From NCBI RefSeq assembly GCF_000972865.1, contig NZ_CP011144.1, forward strand, positions 3,407,118-3,471,117: DNA of 64,000 nt, read 5' to 3'. Made by a program: the position numbers and the translations under genes. Source of the DNA: Pseudoxanthomonas suwonensis (lineage in GTDB: Bacteria; Pseudomonadota; Gammaproteobacteria; Xanthomonadales; Xanthomonadaceae). Positions 5,874 to 63,700 of this stretch are shown here, one piece after another. The notes beneath the pieces were generated by a model, which did not search any database, was not told the origin of the DNA, and was given only the letters and a program-made list of their open reading frames with translations. Numbering within the stretch: position 1 is the stretch's first letter; every line of letters begins with the position of its first letter.

Positions 5874-6181
5874 TCGGCATTACTCTCGGACACCTGCTCG
5901 CGCTCGGCGCGGTCCTGTTCTGCATCAGCATGGCCGGCATCTTCCTCAACCGGAAGAACGTCATCGTCCTGCTGATGTCGATCGAGCTGATGCTGTTGGC
6001 GGTCAACATCAACTTCATCGCGTTCTCGCGCGAGCTGGGCGATGCGGCCGGGCAGATCTTCGTGTTCTTCATCCTGACGGTGGCCGCCGCGGAGGCGGCC
6101 ATCGGCCTGGCGATCCTGGTCGCGCTGTTCCGTACCCGCGGCACGATCAACGTCGGCGAGGTGGATACGCTCAAGGGCTGA
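5870..6181 (+). CDS. nuoK: NADH-quinone oxidoreductase subunit K
   Basis: Small antiporter-like (MrpC-like) membrane subunit, 103 aa with three helices. The two buried glutamates typical of NuoK are present, in [13 protein letters not shown] and in the [17 protein letters not shown] segment. The ATG overlaps the nuoJ stop (ATGA). The TGA stop runs directly into a perfect inverted repeat at 6181-6211, so transcript structure starts at the stop codon. nuoL follows after 253 bases, the largest gap in the nuo operon here. Confidence 0.97.
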
Positions 6182-6278
6182 GCCCGATCGAACCACTGGT
6201 TCGATCGGGCTCAACGCCCGGCCATGGATGGCCGGGCAGGGTTCTCCGGAGCCCACGCGGTACCGCCATGGATGGCGG
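6181..6278. repeat. Three consecutive hairpins in the nuoK-nuoL gap
   Basis: Three inverted repeats follow one another. 6181-6195 pairs with 6197-6211 (15 bp, one-base centre). GCCCGGCCAT at 6216-6225 pairs with ATGGCCGGGC at 6228-6237. CCGCCAT at 6263-6269 pairs with ATGGCGG at 6272-6278. None is followed by a T-run, so they are not intrinsic terminators; RNA stabilisation or processing within the nuo transcript is possible. The GGCCATGGATGGCC core of the second hairpin is the reverse complement of an inner hairpin in the composite repeat at 63217-63307. The remaining 6279-6434 shows no gene. Confidence 0.6.
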
Positions 6279-6434
6279 GGAACCAACGATTGCACGGCGC
6301 TTCGGCTTTGAAGCAGCCACCCGGCAAGGCAGCGCGCCGGCAGAAGTTTGGAAGTTGCGGCATGCGCCCGCGGCGGACCCCGGTCCGCGCGGCCGGAAGC
6401 ATCGACAGGCACGTACTGGAACAGACGGCACACC

Positions 6435-8603
6435 ATGATCATCTCCAAAACCCACCTGCTGCTGATCGTGCTGGCCCCGTTGCTGGGCAGCATCATCGCG
6501 GGTCTGTTCGGACGCCAGGTCGGCCGCAAGGGCGCGCAGTTCGCGACGATCCTCGGCGTGGCGGTCAGCTGTGCGCTGTCGTCCTGGGTGCTGTACCAGC
6601 TGGTGGCCGGCGGCGCCTCGCCGTTCAACCAGAACGTCTACACCTTCTTCGAGGTGGGCAATTACTCGGCCCATGTCGGCTTCATGGTCGACCGCCTGAG
6701 CGCCATGATGATGGTGGTGGTCACCTTCGTCTCGCTGCTGGTCCACATCTACACCATCGGCTACATGGCCGACGACCCGGGTTACCAGCGCTTCTTCAGC
6801 TACATCTCGCTGTTCACCTTCAGCATGCTGATGCTGGTGATGAGCAACAACTTCCTGCAGCTGTTCTTCGGCTGGGAAGCGGTGGGCCTGGTCTCGTACC
6901 TGCTGATCGGCTTCTGGTTCAAGCGGCCGAGCGCGGTGTTCGCCAACATGAAGGCGTTCCTGGTCAACCGCGTGGGCGACTTCGGCTTCCTGCTGGGCAT
7001 CGCCGGCGTGCTGCTGTGGTTCGGCACCCTGGACTACGCCACCGTGTTCGCCAAGGCGCCGGAGCTGCGGGGTGCCTACGTGCAGATCTTCGAGGGACAC
7101 GCCTGGAGCGTGGCCACGATCATCTGCGTATGCCTGTTCATCGGCGCGATGGGCAAGTCGGCGCAGGTGCCGCTGCACGTCTGGCTGCCGGACTCGATGG
7201 AAGGCCCGACCCCGATCTCGGCGCTGATCCATGCCGCGACGATGGTGACCGCGGGCATCTTCATGGTCGCGCGCATGTCGCCGCTGTTCGAGCTTTCGGA
7301 CGCCGCGCTGGCCTTCGTGCTGTTCGTCGGCGCGACCACCGCGTTCTTCATGGGTCTGATCGGCATCGTCCAGAACGACATCAAGCGCGTGGTCGCCTAT
7401 TCGACCCTGTCGCAGCTGGGCTACATGACCGTGGCGCTGGGCGTGTCGGCGTATTCCGGCGCGGTGTACCACCTGATGACCCACGCCTTCTTCAAGGCAC
7501 TGCTGTTCCTGGCGGCCGGCTCGGTGATCATCGGCATGCACCACGAGCAGGACATGCGCAAGATGGGTGGCCTGCGCAAGTACATGCCGATCACCTACTG
7601 GACCAGCGTGCTCGGCACCCTGGCCTTGATCGGCACGCCGTTCTTCTCCGGCTTCTACTCCAAGGACACGATCATCGAGGCCGCTGCGCACCACGCGCAC
7701 GCCGTCGACGGCGCGACGGGCTGGGCATGGTTCATCCCCAACTATGCCTACTGGGCGGTGCTGGGCGGCGTGATCGTGACCAGCTTCTACAGCTTCCGCC
7801 TGCTGTTCCTGACCTTCCACGGCCGGGAGCGCTTCCGCGACCCGCAGGTCGAGCACGTCCAGTCGCACGGCGCCTCGGCGCATACCGACGCCGAGGCGCA
7901 GGTCCACGCGCACGACGACGGTGACCACGGCCATGGCAGCCACGACGACCATGGCCACCATGGCTCGCACGAACCGCATGAATCGCCCTGGGTGGTGACC
8001 GTGCCGCTGATCCTGCTGGCGATTCCGTCGGTGCTGATCGGCTTCTTCACCGCCGGTCCGATGCTGTTCGGCACCGACTGGCTGGGTGCCCGCCATGAAG
8101 CGGCGATCCCGGGTCAGCTGGTGACCTACTTCACCGGTGCCATCGACTTCATCGATCCTGCGCGCGACACCGTCGCCGCGGTCGGCGAGGAGTACTGGCA
8201 CGGTCCGGTCGCCTACGCCCTGCACGGCATGCTGATGCCGGCGTTCTGGCTGACCGTGGCCGGCTTCCTGCTGGCGGCGCTGCTGTACCTGTGGAAGCCG
8301 GACCTGGCCGGCCGCGCGCGCCGCGCGTTCGCGCCGGTGGTGCGGGTCCTCGAGGAGAAGTACGGCTTCGACAAGCTGTGGATCGACGGCTTCGCCGCCG
8401 GTGGCGTCAAGCTGGGCCGGATCTCGCGCTGGATCGACAGCACCGTGATCGACGGCTTCTTCGTCAACGGCAGCGCGCGCGTGGTCGACCTGGCGGCGAC
8501 CCTGCTGCGCCGCACCCAATCCGGTTACCTCTACCACTACGCCTTCGCCATGATCATCGGCCTGATCGCACTTCTGGCCGTGCTCATGCGTTTCTGGCAA
8601 TGA
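6435..8603 (+). CDS. nuoL: NADH-quinone oxidoreductase subunit L
   Basis: Largest antiporter-like proton-pumping subunit of complex I (722 aa), including the lateral helix and C-terminal helix. Typical motifs include the FFGWEAVGLVSYLLIGFWF stretch, the QVPLHVWLPDSMEGPTPISA broken-helix region and THAFFKALLFLAAGSVI. The ATG at 6435 (MIISKTHLL) begins the first hydrophobic helix; longer in-frame starts would read the upstream hairpin region. An unusual His-rich loop occupies residues 474-515, with 13 histidines in 42 residues, between two membrane helices. The rest of the protein is ordinary. Confidence 0.97.
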   Translation: MIISKTHLLLIVLAPLLGSIIAGLFGRQVGRKGAQFATILGVAVSCALSSWVLYQLVAGGASPFNQNVYTFFEVGNYSAHVGFMVDRLSAMMMVVVTFVSLLVHIYTIGYMADDPGYQRFFSYISLFTFSMLMLVMSNNFLQLFFGWEAVGLVSYLLIGFWFKRPSAVFANMKAFLVNRVGDFGFLLGIAGVLLWFGTLDYATVFAKAPELRGAYVQIFEGHAWSVATIICVCLFIGAMGKSAQVPLHVWLPDSMEGPTPISALIHAATMVTAGIFMVARMSPLFELSDAALAFVLFVGATTAFFMGLIGIVQNDIKRVVAYSTLSQLGYMTVALGVSAYSGAVYHLMTHAFFKALLFLAAGSVIIGMHHEQDMRKMGGLRKYMPITYWTSVLGTLALIGTPFFSGFYSKDTIIEAAAHHAHAVDGATGWAWFIPNYAYWAVLGGVIVTSFYSFRLLFLTFHGRERFRDPQVEHVQSHGASAHTDAEAQVHAHDDGDHGHGSHDDHGHHGSHEPHESPWVVTVPLILLAIPSVLIGFFTAGPMLFGTDWLGARHEAAIPGQLVTYFTGAIDFIDPARDTVAAVGEEYWHGPVAYALHGMLMPAFWLTVAGFLLAALLYLWKPDLAGRARRAFAPVVRVLEEKYGFDKLWIDGFAAGGVKLGRISRWIDSTVIDGFFVNGSARVVDLAATLLRRTQSGYLYHYAFAMIIGLIALLAVLMRFWQ

Positions 8604-11696: not shown

Positions 11697-12290
11697 ACGG
11701 CAACCGCAACGGCAGGGTCAAAAGCGCCGGGTGTGGTCAGCTTCGTGCTGAGCCGTGGCAGGCCGGGAGTATTGCGGTCGTCTCGACGGCACATCCCTGT
11801 GCCGACTCGCCGACGCGGCCATCCCTGGCCGCTGCCGCAATACTCCCGGCCCGCCACGTCTTCGGGAGCTTCCAGGTCGTGGCTCCGTTCACAGACGATT
11901 AGCAGCGCACGGCTTTCTGTAGGAGCGGGCATGACCGCGACCCGACGCCGTCGGCCCAGGCGACGCCCTCATGATTCCGACGCCCGTGTCGCGGTCATGC
12001 CCGCTCCTACAGAAGGCGGCGCCTTCATGGGTTTACCCCCTCCCTTTCGCCGCAGGCGAAGGGGAGGGCCGGGGAGGGGTGCTTTTGCGGTTGCTGTTGC
12101 TCCACCAATCGAAGCCACGTCCTCAAAGCTCCCGAGGCCGTCGTGCCCAGAGGGGATGGCGCAAGCAGCACATGGATGTGCTGCGGTCGCGACTCGGAGG
12201 CAGGACGCCGGAGCGGAGCGATGCGCCATCCCCTCTGGGCACGATGGCCCCCTCCGAAGCCAGCGCCCTTGCTCCAAGCCGTGAGCCGCG
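11697..12290. repeat. Composite structured repeat, copy 1 (modules A-B-C)
   Basis: About 600 bp without a gene, sharing order, orientation and module lengths with copies at 49738-50275 and 63173-63700. Module A (11761-11851, 91 bp) is a 17-bp outer stem (11761-11777 with 11835-11851) enclosing two smaller hairpins, a three-way-junction shape. Module B (11918-12011, 94 bp) is a head-to-head pair of GTAGGAGCGGGCATGACCGC REP sequences. Module C (12142-12243, 102 bp) is a perfect 22-bp stem (12142-12163 with 12222-12243) enclosing the hairpin GCAGCACA/TGTGCTGC. A CTCCC/GGGAG-type GC-rich palindrome lies between B and C (about 12045-12085). No credible coding region is present. Confidence 0.85.
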
Positions 12291-12475
12291 ACTACCCCCT
12301 CTGAAGCCAGCGCCCTTGCTTCAAGCCGTGAGCCGCGACTACCCCCTCCGAAGCCAGCGCCCTTGCTTCAAGCCGTGAGCCGCGACTACCCCCTCCGAAG
12401 CCAGCGCCCTTGCTCCAAGCCGCAAGCCGCGACTACCCCGTCCGAAGCCACCGCTTTAGCTTGCTTCGAGCCCCA
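12256..12475. repeat. 47-bp tandem repeat, about four and a half units
   Basis: GAAGCCAGCGCCCTTGC recurs at 12256, 12303, 12350 and 12397, with a diverged unit at 12444: an exact 47-bp period. Units differ by one to three bases; one changes the GTGAGCC segment to GCAAGCC. It grows out of the 3' edge of copy 1 of the composite repeat; single similar units follow copies 2 and 3, so the expansion is local. There are no unique spacers, so it is not a CRISPR array. Confidence 0.9.
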
Positions 12476-41320: not shown

Positions 41321-41414
41321 TGTAGGAGCGGGCATGACCGCGACGCGACGCCGTCGGCACAGGCGACGCCCTGACGGTTCCGACGCTCGTGTCGCGGTCA
41401 TGCCCGCTCCTACA
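41321..41414. repeat. REP pair, class 1 (same as module B)
   Basis: 94 bp, exactly the length of module B in the composite repeats. TGTAGGAGCGGGCATGACCG opens it and its inverted complement closes it (arms about 24 bases). Here it stands alone without modules A and C, which shows that B is an independent unit that the composite has incorporated. Confidence 0.9.
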
Positions 41415-49737: not shown

Positions 49738-50275
49738 ATTTAAAGCCAAAGCCGAGCAGGGCGCTGGCTTCGGGCTGAGCCGCGGCGGGCCGGGAGTATT
49801 GCGGTCGTCTCGACGGCACATCCATGTGCCGACTCGCCGACGTGGCCATCCCTGGCCACTGCCGCAATACTCCCGGCCCGCCACGTCTTCGGGAGCTTTG
49901 GGGTCGTGGCTCCGTTCACAGACGATGAGCAGCGCACGGCTTTTGTAGGAGCGGGCATGACCGCGACCCGACGCCGTCGGCCCAGGCGACGCCCCCGTGA
50001 TTCCGACGCCCGTGTCGCGGTCATGCCCGCTCCTACAGAAGCAGCGTCGTGGGTTTGCCACCTCCCGGTCGGGGAGGGGGGCCTTTGCCGTTGCTCGTCC
50101 GATCGAAGCCACGCCCTCAAAGCTCCCGAGGCCGTCGTGCCCAGGGGGTCTGGCGCAAGCAGCACAGGGATGTGCTGCGGTCGCGACTCGGAGGCAGGAC
50201 GCCGCAGCGGAGCGATGCGCCAGACCCCCTGGGCACGACGGCCCCCTCCGAAGCCAGCGCTTCTGCTGCTCTACA
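49738..50275. repeat. Composite structured repeat, copy 2 (modules A-B-C)
   Basis: Fills the 866-base gap between serA and the next gene, which has no coding content. Module A is 49788-49878 (outer stem 49788-49804 with 49862-49878), module B 49944-50037, and module C 50136-50237 (22-bp stem 50136-50157 with 50216-50237). Lengths are the same as in copy 1 (91, 94, 102 bp). The module C stem differs from copy 1 in its centre (GGGGTCTGG for GGGGATGG-type bases), with matching changes in the opposite arm. A GC-rich CTCCC/GGGAG palindrome lies between B and C. 49526-49737 shows no clear feature. Confidence 0.87.
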
Positions 50276-52225: not shown

Positions 52226-54073
52226 ATGATCCGCTTCCTTGCCGCGCTGGCGGCGCTGCTGCTCTGCCTGGCCGGCGGGCGGGCACAGGCCGCCGTGCCG
52301 TCGTTCCACCTCGCCGCGGACATGGCGCCGGCCGAGCGTGCCGCCACGCTGGAACTGCTGGAGCAGGGCACGGCGAAGTTGCCGCCGACGTGGTCCGTCG
52401 CACTGGACCGCCCGGTTGATTTCGCCTGGCGCGACGACCTGCCCGATGGCGTGCATGGCCGGGCGAAGCATTGGCGCATCTCACTGGACCGGCGGCTGCT
52501 GGCGGACTGGATGGCGCGCCCGGTCGCCGCCGGCGGCGACGATCCGGCCACCCGCGCCGCGCTGGCGGCGCTGCTGCACGAGTTGGCGCACCTGTACGAC
52601 CGCACGCCCGCCGGCGGCCTGTCGCGCGACCCGCGCCTGCTCGACCTGGCGGGCTGGCAGGTCGCCGCGCTGGGGCCGGGCCGGCGCGCGCGCAACGACT
52701 TCCGCGACCGCTCGCCGGACCCGTACGAACTGGCGTCGCCGCGCGAATACGTGGCGGTCAACCTCGAGCACTACCTGCTCGATCCGGATTACGCCTGCCG
52801 CCGGCCGATGCTGGCGCAGTACTTCGATGCGCACTTCGGCTGGTTGCCGCCGGACCGGGAGGCGTGTGCCCCCGGGCTGCCGTTCGTGCGCGACGAAGTG
52901 CGCTCCGACGACCCACAGCGGCTGCTGGGCGAACTGGACCCCGAGCGGATCCTCGAGATCGACTACCTGCTGGCGGAAGGCAACGAGCGGCCGATGAGCC
53001 GCTGGGGTCACGGCATGCTGCGGCTGGTGGTGTGCGCGCCGGACCGCCCGCGTGGCCCGGACTGCCGGCTGGACCTGCAGCACCACCTGGTGCTGTCGTT
53101 CCGCGCCTTCGTCGGCGACGTGCAGATCTCGAACTGGCGCGGGCTGACCGGCTCGTATCCGTCGCGGCTGTTCGTGTTGCCGCTGGGGCAGGTGATCGAC
53201 GAGTACACCAAGGTGGAGCTGCGTGGCCTGCGTTCGGTGCCGCTGGCGCTGTCGCACGGGGAGGTCGCCGCGCTGGCCGGGCGCGCGGCGCAGCTGCACT
53301 GGAGCTATGACGGCCGCTACTACTTCGTGTCCAACAACTGCGCGGTGGAGACCTGGAAGCTGCTGCACGACGCGGTGCCGCGGCTGGCGGCGATGGAGTT
53401 GTCCGGCATCACCCCGAACGGACTGCTGCGGCGGCTGCGCGCCGCCGGCGCGACCGCCGAGGCGGGTGTGCCCGCCGATCCGGCCGGGCAGGTCAGGCTC
53501 GGCTACCACTTCGAGCCGGCCAGCGCGCAATACGAGGCGATGTATGCGATCGCGCGCGGCGAACTGGGCCTGCCGCAACCGGATGCGGCCGCATGGCTGG
53601 CGTTGCCTCCGCAGTTGCGTACGGCGGCCCTGCAGCGTGCCGGCCAGCGCGCCGCAGCGGCGCTGCTGGTGCTGGAATCGGCGGCGTTGCGCCGGCAGGA
53701 AATGCTGGCGCGCGATGAGCTCAAGCGGCGCTGGCTGCGCGATCCGCACGGACTGGCCGATGCCGGCGTGGAGATCGCCGGGCCACTGCGGGAGTTCCTG
53801 CGCCTGGGCGGTGCGTTCAGCCGGCCGGCGTCATGGCTGGAGGACGTCGCGGGCTACGGCCTGCCGCAGGCGGAAGAGCGTGCGGTGCTGGCGGCGCGTG
53901 TGCACGAGGACGCGGCGAGCCGGCAGGCGCAGGCCGGCGCGCTGGAGGCCGGCGTCCGCCAGTTGCTGTCGCCAGCGCGGCGCGATGCCCTGGCGGGGGC
54001 CGAGGCCAACGTAGTGCTGGTCGGCGACCGCCTGCGTGAACTGTTCGCCGAACCGCCGCGGGCGTCCTTGTAG
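52226..54073 (+). CDS. Exported DUF4105 protein with an HExxH motif
   Basis: 615 aa with a signal peptide (about 1-24). The N-terminal half has H118-E119-x-x-H122 in LLHELAHLYDR, a zincin-like metal site. The middle is a DUF4105 domain with SRWGHGMLRLVV (H262) and YYFVSNNCAVETW (C372), matching the His/Cys pair of the papain-like DUF4105 domain of the lipoprotein N-acyltransferase Lnb. No Lnb-type membrane domain is present; a helical, Arg/Ala-rich C-terminus (about 450-615) follows. A periplasmic cysteine hydrolase or transferase is plausible. The stop TAG is formed by the GTAG of the REP array. Confidence 0.82.
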   Translation: MIRFLAALAALLLCLAGGRAQAAVPSFHLAADMAPAERAATLELLEQGTAKLPPTWSVALDRPVDFAWRDDLPDGVHGRAKHWRISLDRRLLADWMARPVAAGGDDPATRAALAALLHELAHLYDRTPAGGLSRDPRLLDLAGWQVAALGPGRRARNDFRDRSPDPYELASPREYVAVNLEHYLLDPDYACRRPMLAQYFDAHFGWLPPDREACAPGLPFVRDEVRSDDPQRLLGELDPERILEIDYLLAEGNERPMSRWGHGMLRLVVCAPDRPRGPDCRLDLQHHLVLSFRAFVGDVQISNWRGLTGSYPSRLFVLPLGQVIDEYTKVELRGLRSVPLALSHGEVAALAGRAAQLHWSYDGRYYFVSNNCAVETWKLLHDAVPRLAAMELSGITPNGLLRRLRAAGATAEAGVPADPAGQVRLGYHFEPASAQYEAMYAIARGELGLPQPDAAAWLALPPQLRTAALQRAGQRAAAALLVLESAALRRQEMLARDELKRRWLRDPHGLADAGVEIAGPLREFLRLGGAFSRPASWLEDVAGYGLPQAEERAVLAARVHEDAASRQAQAGALEAGVRQLLSPARRDALAGAEANVVLVGDRLRELFAEPPRASL

Positions 54074-54660
54074 GAGCCCAGCTCGCTGGCGACACGGGCG
54101 TCGGAATCATGGGAGCGTCGCCTGTGCCGACGGCGTCGGGTCGCCGGCTGAACCCGGCTCCTACAACAGCCGCGTCGCCGCGGTCGCTCTTCTGTAGGAG
54201 CTGACTTCAGTCGGCGACACGGGCGTCGGAATCATGAGGGCGTCGCCTGTGCCGACGGCGTCGGGTCGCCGGCTGAACCCGGCTCCTACAACAGCCACGT
54301 CGCCGCGGTCGCTCTTCTGTAGGAGCTGACTTCAGTCGGCGACACGGGCGTCGGAATCATGAGGGCGTCGCCTGCGCCGACGGCGTTGGGTCGCCGGCTG
54401 AACCCGGCTCCTACAACAGCCACGTCGCCGCGGTCGCTCTTCTGTAGGAGCTGACTTCAGTCGGCGACACGGGCGTCGGAATTATGAGGGCGTCGCCTGC
54501 GCCGACGGCGCCGTGTCGCGGGCAAGCCCGGCACCTGCACGGCCTCGGCGCTTCTGTAGGAGCCCATTCATAGGCGACACGCGCGCCGGAACGGCGAGGC
54601 GGTCAGGTGTGCCAGCGTGGCCTGTCGCGGCCGCGGCCCGGCTGCTGCAACAGAATGCTG
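54070..54660. repeat. Tandem array of class-2 REP pairs (124/125-bp period)
   Basis: GTAGGAG occurs at 54070, 54194, 54319, 54444 and 54555: four units of 124, 125, 125 and about 111 bases and a decayed fifth. Each unit is a REP pair (GTAGGAGCTGACTTCAGTCG to GGCTCCTAC) with the ACGGGCGTCGGAATCATGAG centre, plus a linker with GTCGCCGCGGTCGCTCTTCT. Units 2 to 4 are almost identical, indicating recent amplification. It fills the 627-base gap between the DUF4105 gene and efpL, which converge, and its left edge supplies the DUF4105 stop. Confidence 0.92.
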
Positions 54661-63039: not shown

Positions 63040-63081
63040 CTCGGTCTGCATTGGCGAGATCGGTCGCGATGGCAGCATTGG

Positions 63082-63171
63082 CCGCAACCGCAACCGCAAC
63101 CGCAACCGCAACCGCAACCGCAACCGCAACCGCAACCGCAACCGCAACCGCAACCGCAACCGCAACCGCAA
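63082..63171. repeat. Hexamer microsatellite, 15 copies of CCGCAA
   Basis: Exactly 90 bases of perfect CCGCAA units, ending directly before GTCAAAAGCGCCGGG, the conserved left border of the composite repeat. Copy 1 of the composite has only a relic (GGCAACCGCAACGGCAGG near 11697). The array reads as alternating Gln/Pro or Ala/Thr in open frames, but I see no sign that it is translated. Confidence 0.97.
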
Positions 63172-63172
63172 A

Positions 63173-63700
63173 GTCAAAAGCGCCGGGCGTGGTCGGCTTC
63201 GGTCTGAGCCGTGGCAGGCCGGGGGTATTGCGGTCGTCTCGACGGCACATCCGTGTGCCGACTCACCGACGTGGCCATCCATGGCCACTGCCGCAATACC
63301 CCCGGCCCGCCACGTCTTCGGGAGCGTCCAGGTCGTAGCTCCGTTCACAGGCGATGAGCAGCGCACGGCCTTTTTGTAGGAGCGGGCATGACCGCGACCC
63401 GACGCCGTCGGCCCAGGCGACGCCCCCGTGATTCCGACGCCCGTGTCGCGGTCATGCCCGCTCCTACAGAAGGCAGTGCCGTCTGGGAGGGCCGGGGAGT
63501 GGTGACCTTGCTCTTGCTCCCCAGATCGAAGCCATGACCTCAAAGCTACCCGAGGCCGTCGTGCCCAGGGGGTCTGGCGCAAGCAGCACAGGGATGTGCT
63601 GCGGTCGCGACTCGGAGGCAGGACGCCGCAGCGGAGCGATGCGCCAGACCCCCTGGGCACGGCGGCCCCTTCCGGAGCCGACGCTTTTGCTTCACCAGCG
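63173..63700. repeat. Composite structured repeat, copy 3 (modules A-B-C)
   Basis: Module A 63217-63307 (outer stem 63217-63233 with 63291-63307), module B 63375-63468, module C 63560-63661 (stem 63560-63581 with 63640-63661). Lengths 91, 94 and 102 bp equal copies 1 and 2. In the module A outer stem, GGGAGTATT of copies 1 and 2 reads GGGGGTATT and the opposite arm changes from AATACTCCC to AATACCCCC. It lies between the terminator of the acyl-CoA dehydrogenase and pbpC; no gene is present, and 63701-63806 shows only a pbpC leader. Confidence 0.88.

Follow-up and report, generated by a model that had tools for sequence, protein, structure and literature searches.

A dispersed repeat of mirror-image, GGA-tipped hairpin modules in Pseudoxanthomonas suwonensis, a candidate source of RsmA-binding RNA

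RNAs of the CsrB/C and RsmX/Y/Z type are encoded by single or few-copy RNA genes. These RsmA/CsrA-sequestering RNAs, together with RsmU of Xanthomonas and the TwoAYGGAY RNA (RF01731), share paired hairpins with A(N)GGA loops with the element described here. Unlike the sequestering RNAs, the element is present in ~80 dispersed copies, has mirror symmetry and a covarying 22-bp base and matches no Rfam family at threshold. In Xanthomonas, lifestyle and virulence are under the control of RsmA, and homologues of the classical RsmA-sequestering RNAs were reportedly not found in sequenced genomes of that genus (PMC7694677). A further point of comparison is provided by GTAG-type REPs and REPINs with their RAYT genes. 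The central module of our element (B) is of this kind: it is an inverted pair with GTAG tags, and REPs of its type lie on both sides of a RAYT gene. In A. variabilis, long palindromes with GTAG dimers inside them have been recorded (PMC3733652). The outer modules (A and C) differ from GTAG REPs in their length of ~105 bp, two sub-hairpins, free stems, fixed tips and missing GTAG foot. Lastly, the ‘1152’ TIRs of TIRYT transposases in S. maltophilia, a member of the same bacterial family, are self-complementary and mostly lie close together (PMC3733652). Compared by description rather than by sequence, they differ from our modules, none of which flanks a Y1 transposase gene in this genome.

The window, that is, the whole stretch of 64,000 nucleotides analyzed, contains three A-B-C copies with the same order and orientation (Table 1), as proposed in the initial annotation. 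Borders of A and C were set with a covariance model (R1) and those of B by its exact ends, GTAGGAGC to GCTCCTAC. The module lengths proposed earlier (91, 94 and 102 bp) were close and are here refined to 105 bp for A, 92 bp for B and 108 bp for C, uniform over the three copies. With these borders, the A-B linkers measure 59–61 bp instead of 65–67 bp and the B-C linkers 89–128 bp instead of 91–130 bp. The solitary B noticed at 41321 was recovered with exact ends. The copies occupy intergenic gaps of 0.87–1.0 kb, in agreement with the earlier estimate, on the basis of home-made gene calls and with a tRNA closing the first gap; copies 1 and 3 are preceded by hairpins with a subsequent T-run, as judged by eye, and the initial annotation had two copies directly after an operon terminator. 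Several other repeats were seen in the window. An (AACCGC)n hexamer array (63070–63171) directly precedes copy 3, and similar GGCAAC/ACCGCA runs precede many other copies. A 47-bp tandem repeat built of copy 1 right-end sequence occupies positions 12248–12440, and REP pairs form a tandem array with a period of ~125 bp at 54070–54649.

Table 1 Positions of element modules in the window and in Stenotrophomonas loci.
Feature	Position	Strand	Evidence
Copy 1, module A	11754–11858	- (GGA hairpins, minus strand)	Covariance model R1, 117.5 bits
Copy 1, module B, nested REP doublet (REPIN), GTAGGAGC...GCTCCTAC	11919–12010	.	Exact ends; RAYT gene flanked by same REP type
Copy 1, module C	12139–12246	+ (GGA hairpins, plus strand)	R1, 79.4 bits
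Solo B (REPIN), without A or C	41322–41413	.	Exact ends; R1 only weak, 31.2 + 26.7 bits
Copy 2, module A	49781–49885	-	R1, 119.4 bits
Copy 2, module B (REPIN)	49945–50036	.	Exact ends
Copy 2, module C	50133–50240	+	R1, 84.9 bits
Copy 3, module A	63210–63314	-	R1, 116.4 bits
Copy 3, module B (REPIN)	63376–63467	.	Exact ends
Copy 3, module C	63557–63664	+	R1, 82.8 bits
Stenotrophomonas L230, mirror pair, a little beyond nuoN/tRNA-Met region	7429–7918 (locus)
Stenotrophomonas L231, module, a little beyond nuoN/tRNA-Met region	7776–7872 (locus)
Stenotrophomonas L235, module, a little beyond nuoN/tRNA-Met region	7190–7288 (locus)

Core sequences of 22 bases from A and 23 bases from C served as queries against the whole genome (one contig, 3,891,720 bases), with up to three mismatches allowed. 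The A core was found at 79 places and the C core at 40, compared to none for the reversed control; the copies are, therefore, not chance matches but a dispersed family, the genome-wide extent of which had not been visible to the initial annotation that proposed such a search. A C core followed 371–659 bases downstream on the same strand in 33 of the 79 A copies. One further A copy had a nearby C core on the other strand, and six of the 40 C cores had no A core near. Among 15 downstream stretches read by eye, all from the group of 45 A copies lacking a C core, four carried a complete second C subtype and about five only a short C remnant. The covariance model, applied to the 635,651 bases around copies, returned 132 modules at E ≤ 1e-7, of which 75 were A-type and 57 C-type. 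Neighboring modules of opposite orientation were ordered (−,+) in 46/46 cases in this genome and in 21/21 cases in relatives, with a single same-strand (−,−) pair in each set. The earlier view of a dispersed, non-autonomous repeat that exceeds a REP doublet in size and degree of structure is supported. Three copies within 52 kb of the window might suggest a segmental duplication that included neighboring genes. With 79 A copies around the chromosome, neighbors that differ in orientation and distance and homology that fades outside the element, we reject this explanation as having a negligible probability. A phage or plasmid origin was also rejected, as neither collection yielded a blastn match. 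A GGTTCTTSGCC-like left end was present in 32 of the 79 copies, its right partner in nine and both in six, some of these by chance, and no target duplication was established.

Each module, read on the strand bearing GGA, consists of a basal stem of ~22 bp around hairpin 1 and a branch that has hairpin 2 at its end, with sub-hairpin stems of 6–9 bp on the >20-bp base. Module A has this fold on the minus strand and C on the plus strand, such that the two are mirror images, a relationship missed previously. The right flank of A pairs roughly with the left flank of C and the left flank of A with the right flank of C. For copy 2 as a whole, this pairing gives a four-way fold in which B caps the inner stem (z −18.5; minus strand, z −16.3). 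Across the whole window, a tRNA was the only Rfam match at threshold, and the 20 matches listed for copy 2 all fell far below the gathering threshold; membership in a known RNA family was rejected on this basis.

Between genomes, the stems diverge freely yet remain paired, while the tips are fixed. Among 66 distinct modules, 36 of 40 basal stem pairs changed on both sides, and 95.1% of cells were paired, compared to a mean of 67.5% after shuffling and at most 45.6% with the partner slid, values from an alignment fitted to the covariance model. In a MAFFT alignment of 16 modules that was not structure-fitted, 26/40 pairs still varied on both sides. The C-G pair closing both hairpins was present in 66/66 rows, and the consensus tip fixed across genomes is C-A(N)GGA(U/C)-G. 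Hairpin 1 carried the tip C-ANGGAX-G in 67/67 modules of relatives and 127/132 of this genome, and hairpin 2 a C-G-closed A(N)GGAX tip in 64/67 and 129/132; these counts arise partly by construction, as the model was built from such modules, the loci of relatives were top matches and the search patterns each extend into one loop. In A as well as in C, hairpin 1 lies outside both search patterns. The N in hairpin 1 is free (T 51, G 11 and C 5 in relatives; G 76, T 45 and A 2 in this genome), and it is missing from hairpin 2 in 30/67 modules of relatives and 51/132 here. A count of perfect hairpins (stem of at least 7, loop of 3–6) found loops with GGA or TCC in 147/151 cases in A zones and 38/38 in C zones, compared to 54/728 elsewhere in the same sequence. 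Separately, the coding strand of the nuoK-nuoL gap (window 6180–6340) contains a long perfect hairpin followed by two hairpins with CC-AUGGAU-GG tips, with stems of 8 and at least 5 bp and an RNA fold z of −6.4. These are possibly further RsmA-type sites inside an operon.

At E 1e-3 and with up to 150 candidates scored per genome, 15 out of 17 genomes from the genus, this one included, carried the fold, with 141 matches in this genome, 3–84 in the other positive genomes and none in two (G172 and G136). Across the order, using E 1e-6, stricter filters and 11 candidates per genome, it was present in 38/348 genomes and 15/93 genera, one of them in another family. The core sequence patterns matched 22 of 297 genomes of the family for A, almost always with one chance-like match, and five of 297 for C. 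Since the patterns match hardly anything beyond this genome, the fold outlasts the sequence. The best reading is that the element family belongs to Lysobacteraceae. At single sites, the nuoN protein of the window is 90–91% identical to those of P. suwonensis J47, P. jiangsuensis and a Pseudoxanthomonas MAG. Of 80 named nuoN loci, six had matches at E ≤ 0.01: P. jiangsuensis (L273), two MAGs (L224 and L226) and three Stenotrophomonas (L230, L231 and L235). The Stenotrophomonas matches were weaker (L230, 50.0 + 42.5 bits; L235, 40.5; L231, 40.4), with ANGGA tips on unrelated stems, and may represent the S. maltophilia self-complementary TIRs. The nuoN/tRNA-Met gap, 998 bp here, lacks the element and is short in P. 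suwonensis J47 (237 bp), DSM 17175 (256 bp) and Pseudoxanthomonas sp. J31 (268 bp), compatible with either loss or gain. The copy 3 site is filled in another relative (G010), without B and with a spacer of 118 bp, as judged by matching the flanking proteins by eye.

The initial annotation regarded the element as assembled around a REP pair. Instead, B is an optional REPIN nested between A and C: both GTAGGAGC and GCTCCTAC, at up to one mismatch each, were present in the spacer of 44/46 pairs in this genome compared to 3/21 in relatives, making the REP pair a passenger. B shows the GTAG foot on an inverted hairpin pair. The RAYT gene that had been proposed as a search target was found as a RAYT-like gene at G000:C1:2795476 (L121) with GTAGGAGC REP pairs on both sides; this arrangement accounts for B, and the gene is the likely source of it. 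A second Y1 transposase gene (G000:C1:2490086, L122) is flanked by a different, AAAAGGGGTCAGGTTCATTTTC-like repeat. In the two 3.3-kb loci around these genes, the only match to A/C modules was marginal (E 0.094, L122), with none at E ≤ 0.05; thus, neither Y1 locus of this genome has the TIRtron arrangement of a TIRYT or RAYT gene flanked by modules. An ordinary REP/BIME array, in which A and C are further REPs of the local RAYT, would fit the nature of B and the RAYT gene with B-type REPs on its flanks. However, an unpaired GTAG/GTGG foot or CGTC tag is missing from A and C, whose foot is base-paired and in which all basal pairs show changes on both sides when genomes are compared; moreover, no module accompanies either Y1 transposase gene of this genome and 18 of the 21 pairs in relatives lack B by the one-mismatch test. 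We, therefore, reject a plain REP/BIME identity for A and C as highly improbable.

For information about the strand on which the fold is maintained, mismatches were classified into kinds by column and pair type on the GGA strand of the 132 modules of this genome. Kinds common to at least two copies comprised 14 G.U and no A.C, and single-copy kinds 11 G.U and 17 A.C (Fisher P = 1.2e-4), in a test that rests on a modest number of independent kinds. The asymmetry persisted without the three commonest kinds (P = 6.8e-4) and for A alone (0.046) and C alone (0.0046). In relatives, the ratio of G.U to A.C was 69 to 7 distinct cases, from loci that were top-scoring matches, which favors G.U. As A and C bear GGA on opposite strands, the excess is not accounted for by an effect tied to a single chromosome strand. 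DNA, too, tolerates G.T better than A.C. The long-range stems between A and C flanks had no such asymmetry (inner, G.U 106 and A.C 83; outer, 72 and 81), and we rejected them as strand-selected RNA. Together with the covariation, the 14 shared G.U and no shared A.C kinds point to selection on single GGA-bearing strands, most simply as RNA, without proving it.

Copies lie mostly downstream of genes and are rare in divergent gaps. By approximate, home-made gene calls, the genes flanking the 79 copies were convergent in 30, tandem in 45 and divergent in four cases, compared to 20, 68 and 45 of 133 gaps of 100–400 bp in the same stretches. This distribution and the very stable fold on both strands would suit a bidirectional 3′-end element that, through its strong folds, terminates transcription or protects mRNA 3′ ends independently of RsmA. 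Such a role leaves the fixed tips with free stems and the fixed (−,+) order unexplained and seems improbable to us. A home-made scan detected terminator-like sites between gene and element in 17/58 upstream and 14/46 downstream cases; many copies could, thus, be within reach of read-through and some could not. One module A copy follows csrA and tRNA-Ser (G000:C1:3197467–3198150, L348), its C being only a remnant by eye.

The copies also tend to point with the replication fork (56/79, P = 2.6e-4). A dif-like pattern search for the terminus gave no match, and the origin was, therefore, placed by dnaA (1.926 Mb on the contig) and by GC skew, which in sampled stretches is negative below ~1.95 Mb and positive above. 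With-fork and against-fork orientations numbered 22 and 4 in tandem gaps where genes run with the fork, 13 and 6 where they run against it and 17 and 13 in convergent gaps. The fork, thus, predicts orientation better than gene direction does. Gene direction is unsupported as a cause, given that elements in tandem gaps mostly keep to the fork for both directions of the genes. This preference, holding even where genes run the opposite way, is in line with a purely mobile DNA element whose modules are single-stranded end hairpins moved by an HUH transposase of the RAYT/TIRYT type, with the fixed tips as recognition signal. The close-lying self-complementary TIRs described beside a TIRYT gene in S. 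maltophilia (PMC3733652) agree with this possibility, which we regard as less likely than not. Against it, both Y1 transposase loci of this genome lack a module, and A and C each retain G.U over A.C on the GGA strand, which is unexpected from one shared DNA strand but not decisive.

The reading that we favor, at an evenly balanced level of confidence, is a mobile, non-autonomous repeat with GGA modules that would bind RsmA when either strand is transcribed. The A(N)GGAX loops are closed by a stem and paired within the module, partly by construction, and the genome encodes one csrA gene (PF02599 match, E 3.4e-26, 3197467–3197622). A hexaloop like the module tip is a published high-affinity RsmA/CsrA site, the published CsrA consensus matches and published CsrA/RsmA sites usually come in pairs. 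In the proposed mechanism, read-through from a neighboring transcript or an own promoter would generate RNA of either strand carrying exactly one GGA module, and the two tips of one module RNA would bind one RsmA/CsrA dimer. The family could then act as scattered RsmA decoys or 3′-UTR binding sites, in the role taken elsewhere by CsrB/RsmY/RsmZ RNAs, and copying by an unlinked single-strand (HUH) transposase is plausible. Arguments against RsmA binding are the stable stems, the many modules with hairpin 2 lacking the N and the terminator-like sites, which may limit read-through. CsrA SELEX hairpins are mostly up to 4 bp long, very stable stems are perhaps disadvantageous and loss of the N in an A(N)GGA tip lowers CsrA affinity in published work. 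RsmU of Xanthomonas reportedly bound RsmA even with changed GGA motifs. The fork orientation is left unexplained by an RNA role.

A more far-reaching version of the RsmA-binding hypothesis, which we regard as rather unlikely, is a self-spreading RsmA sponge with dozens of decoy modules per genome in Lysobacteraceae, whose mirror symmetry would provide one dimer-binding ANGGA pair per transcript direction; RNAs of the CsrB/RsmY/RsmZ type are not known from this group. A literature search covering titles and abstract openings, with subscription papers mostly outside it, returned no description of this repeat or of a repeat-borne CsrA sponge. What looks like a ‘REP composite’ can, as here, be an older structured element that hosts a REP pair as its guest. 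If RsmA binding holds true, the family would connect selfish DNA with a regulator that acts globally at the post-transcriptional level, and the relation of copy number to RsmA titration would become a directly testable question.
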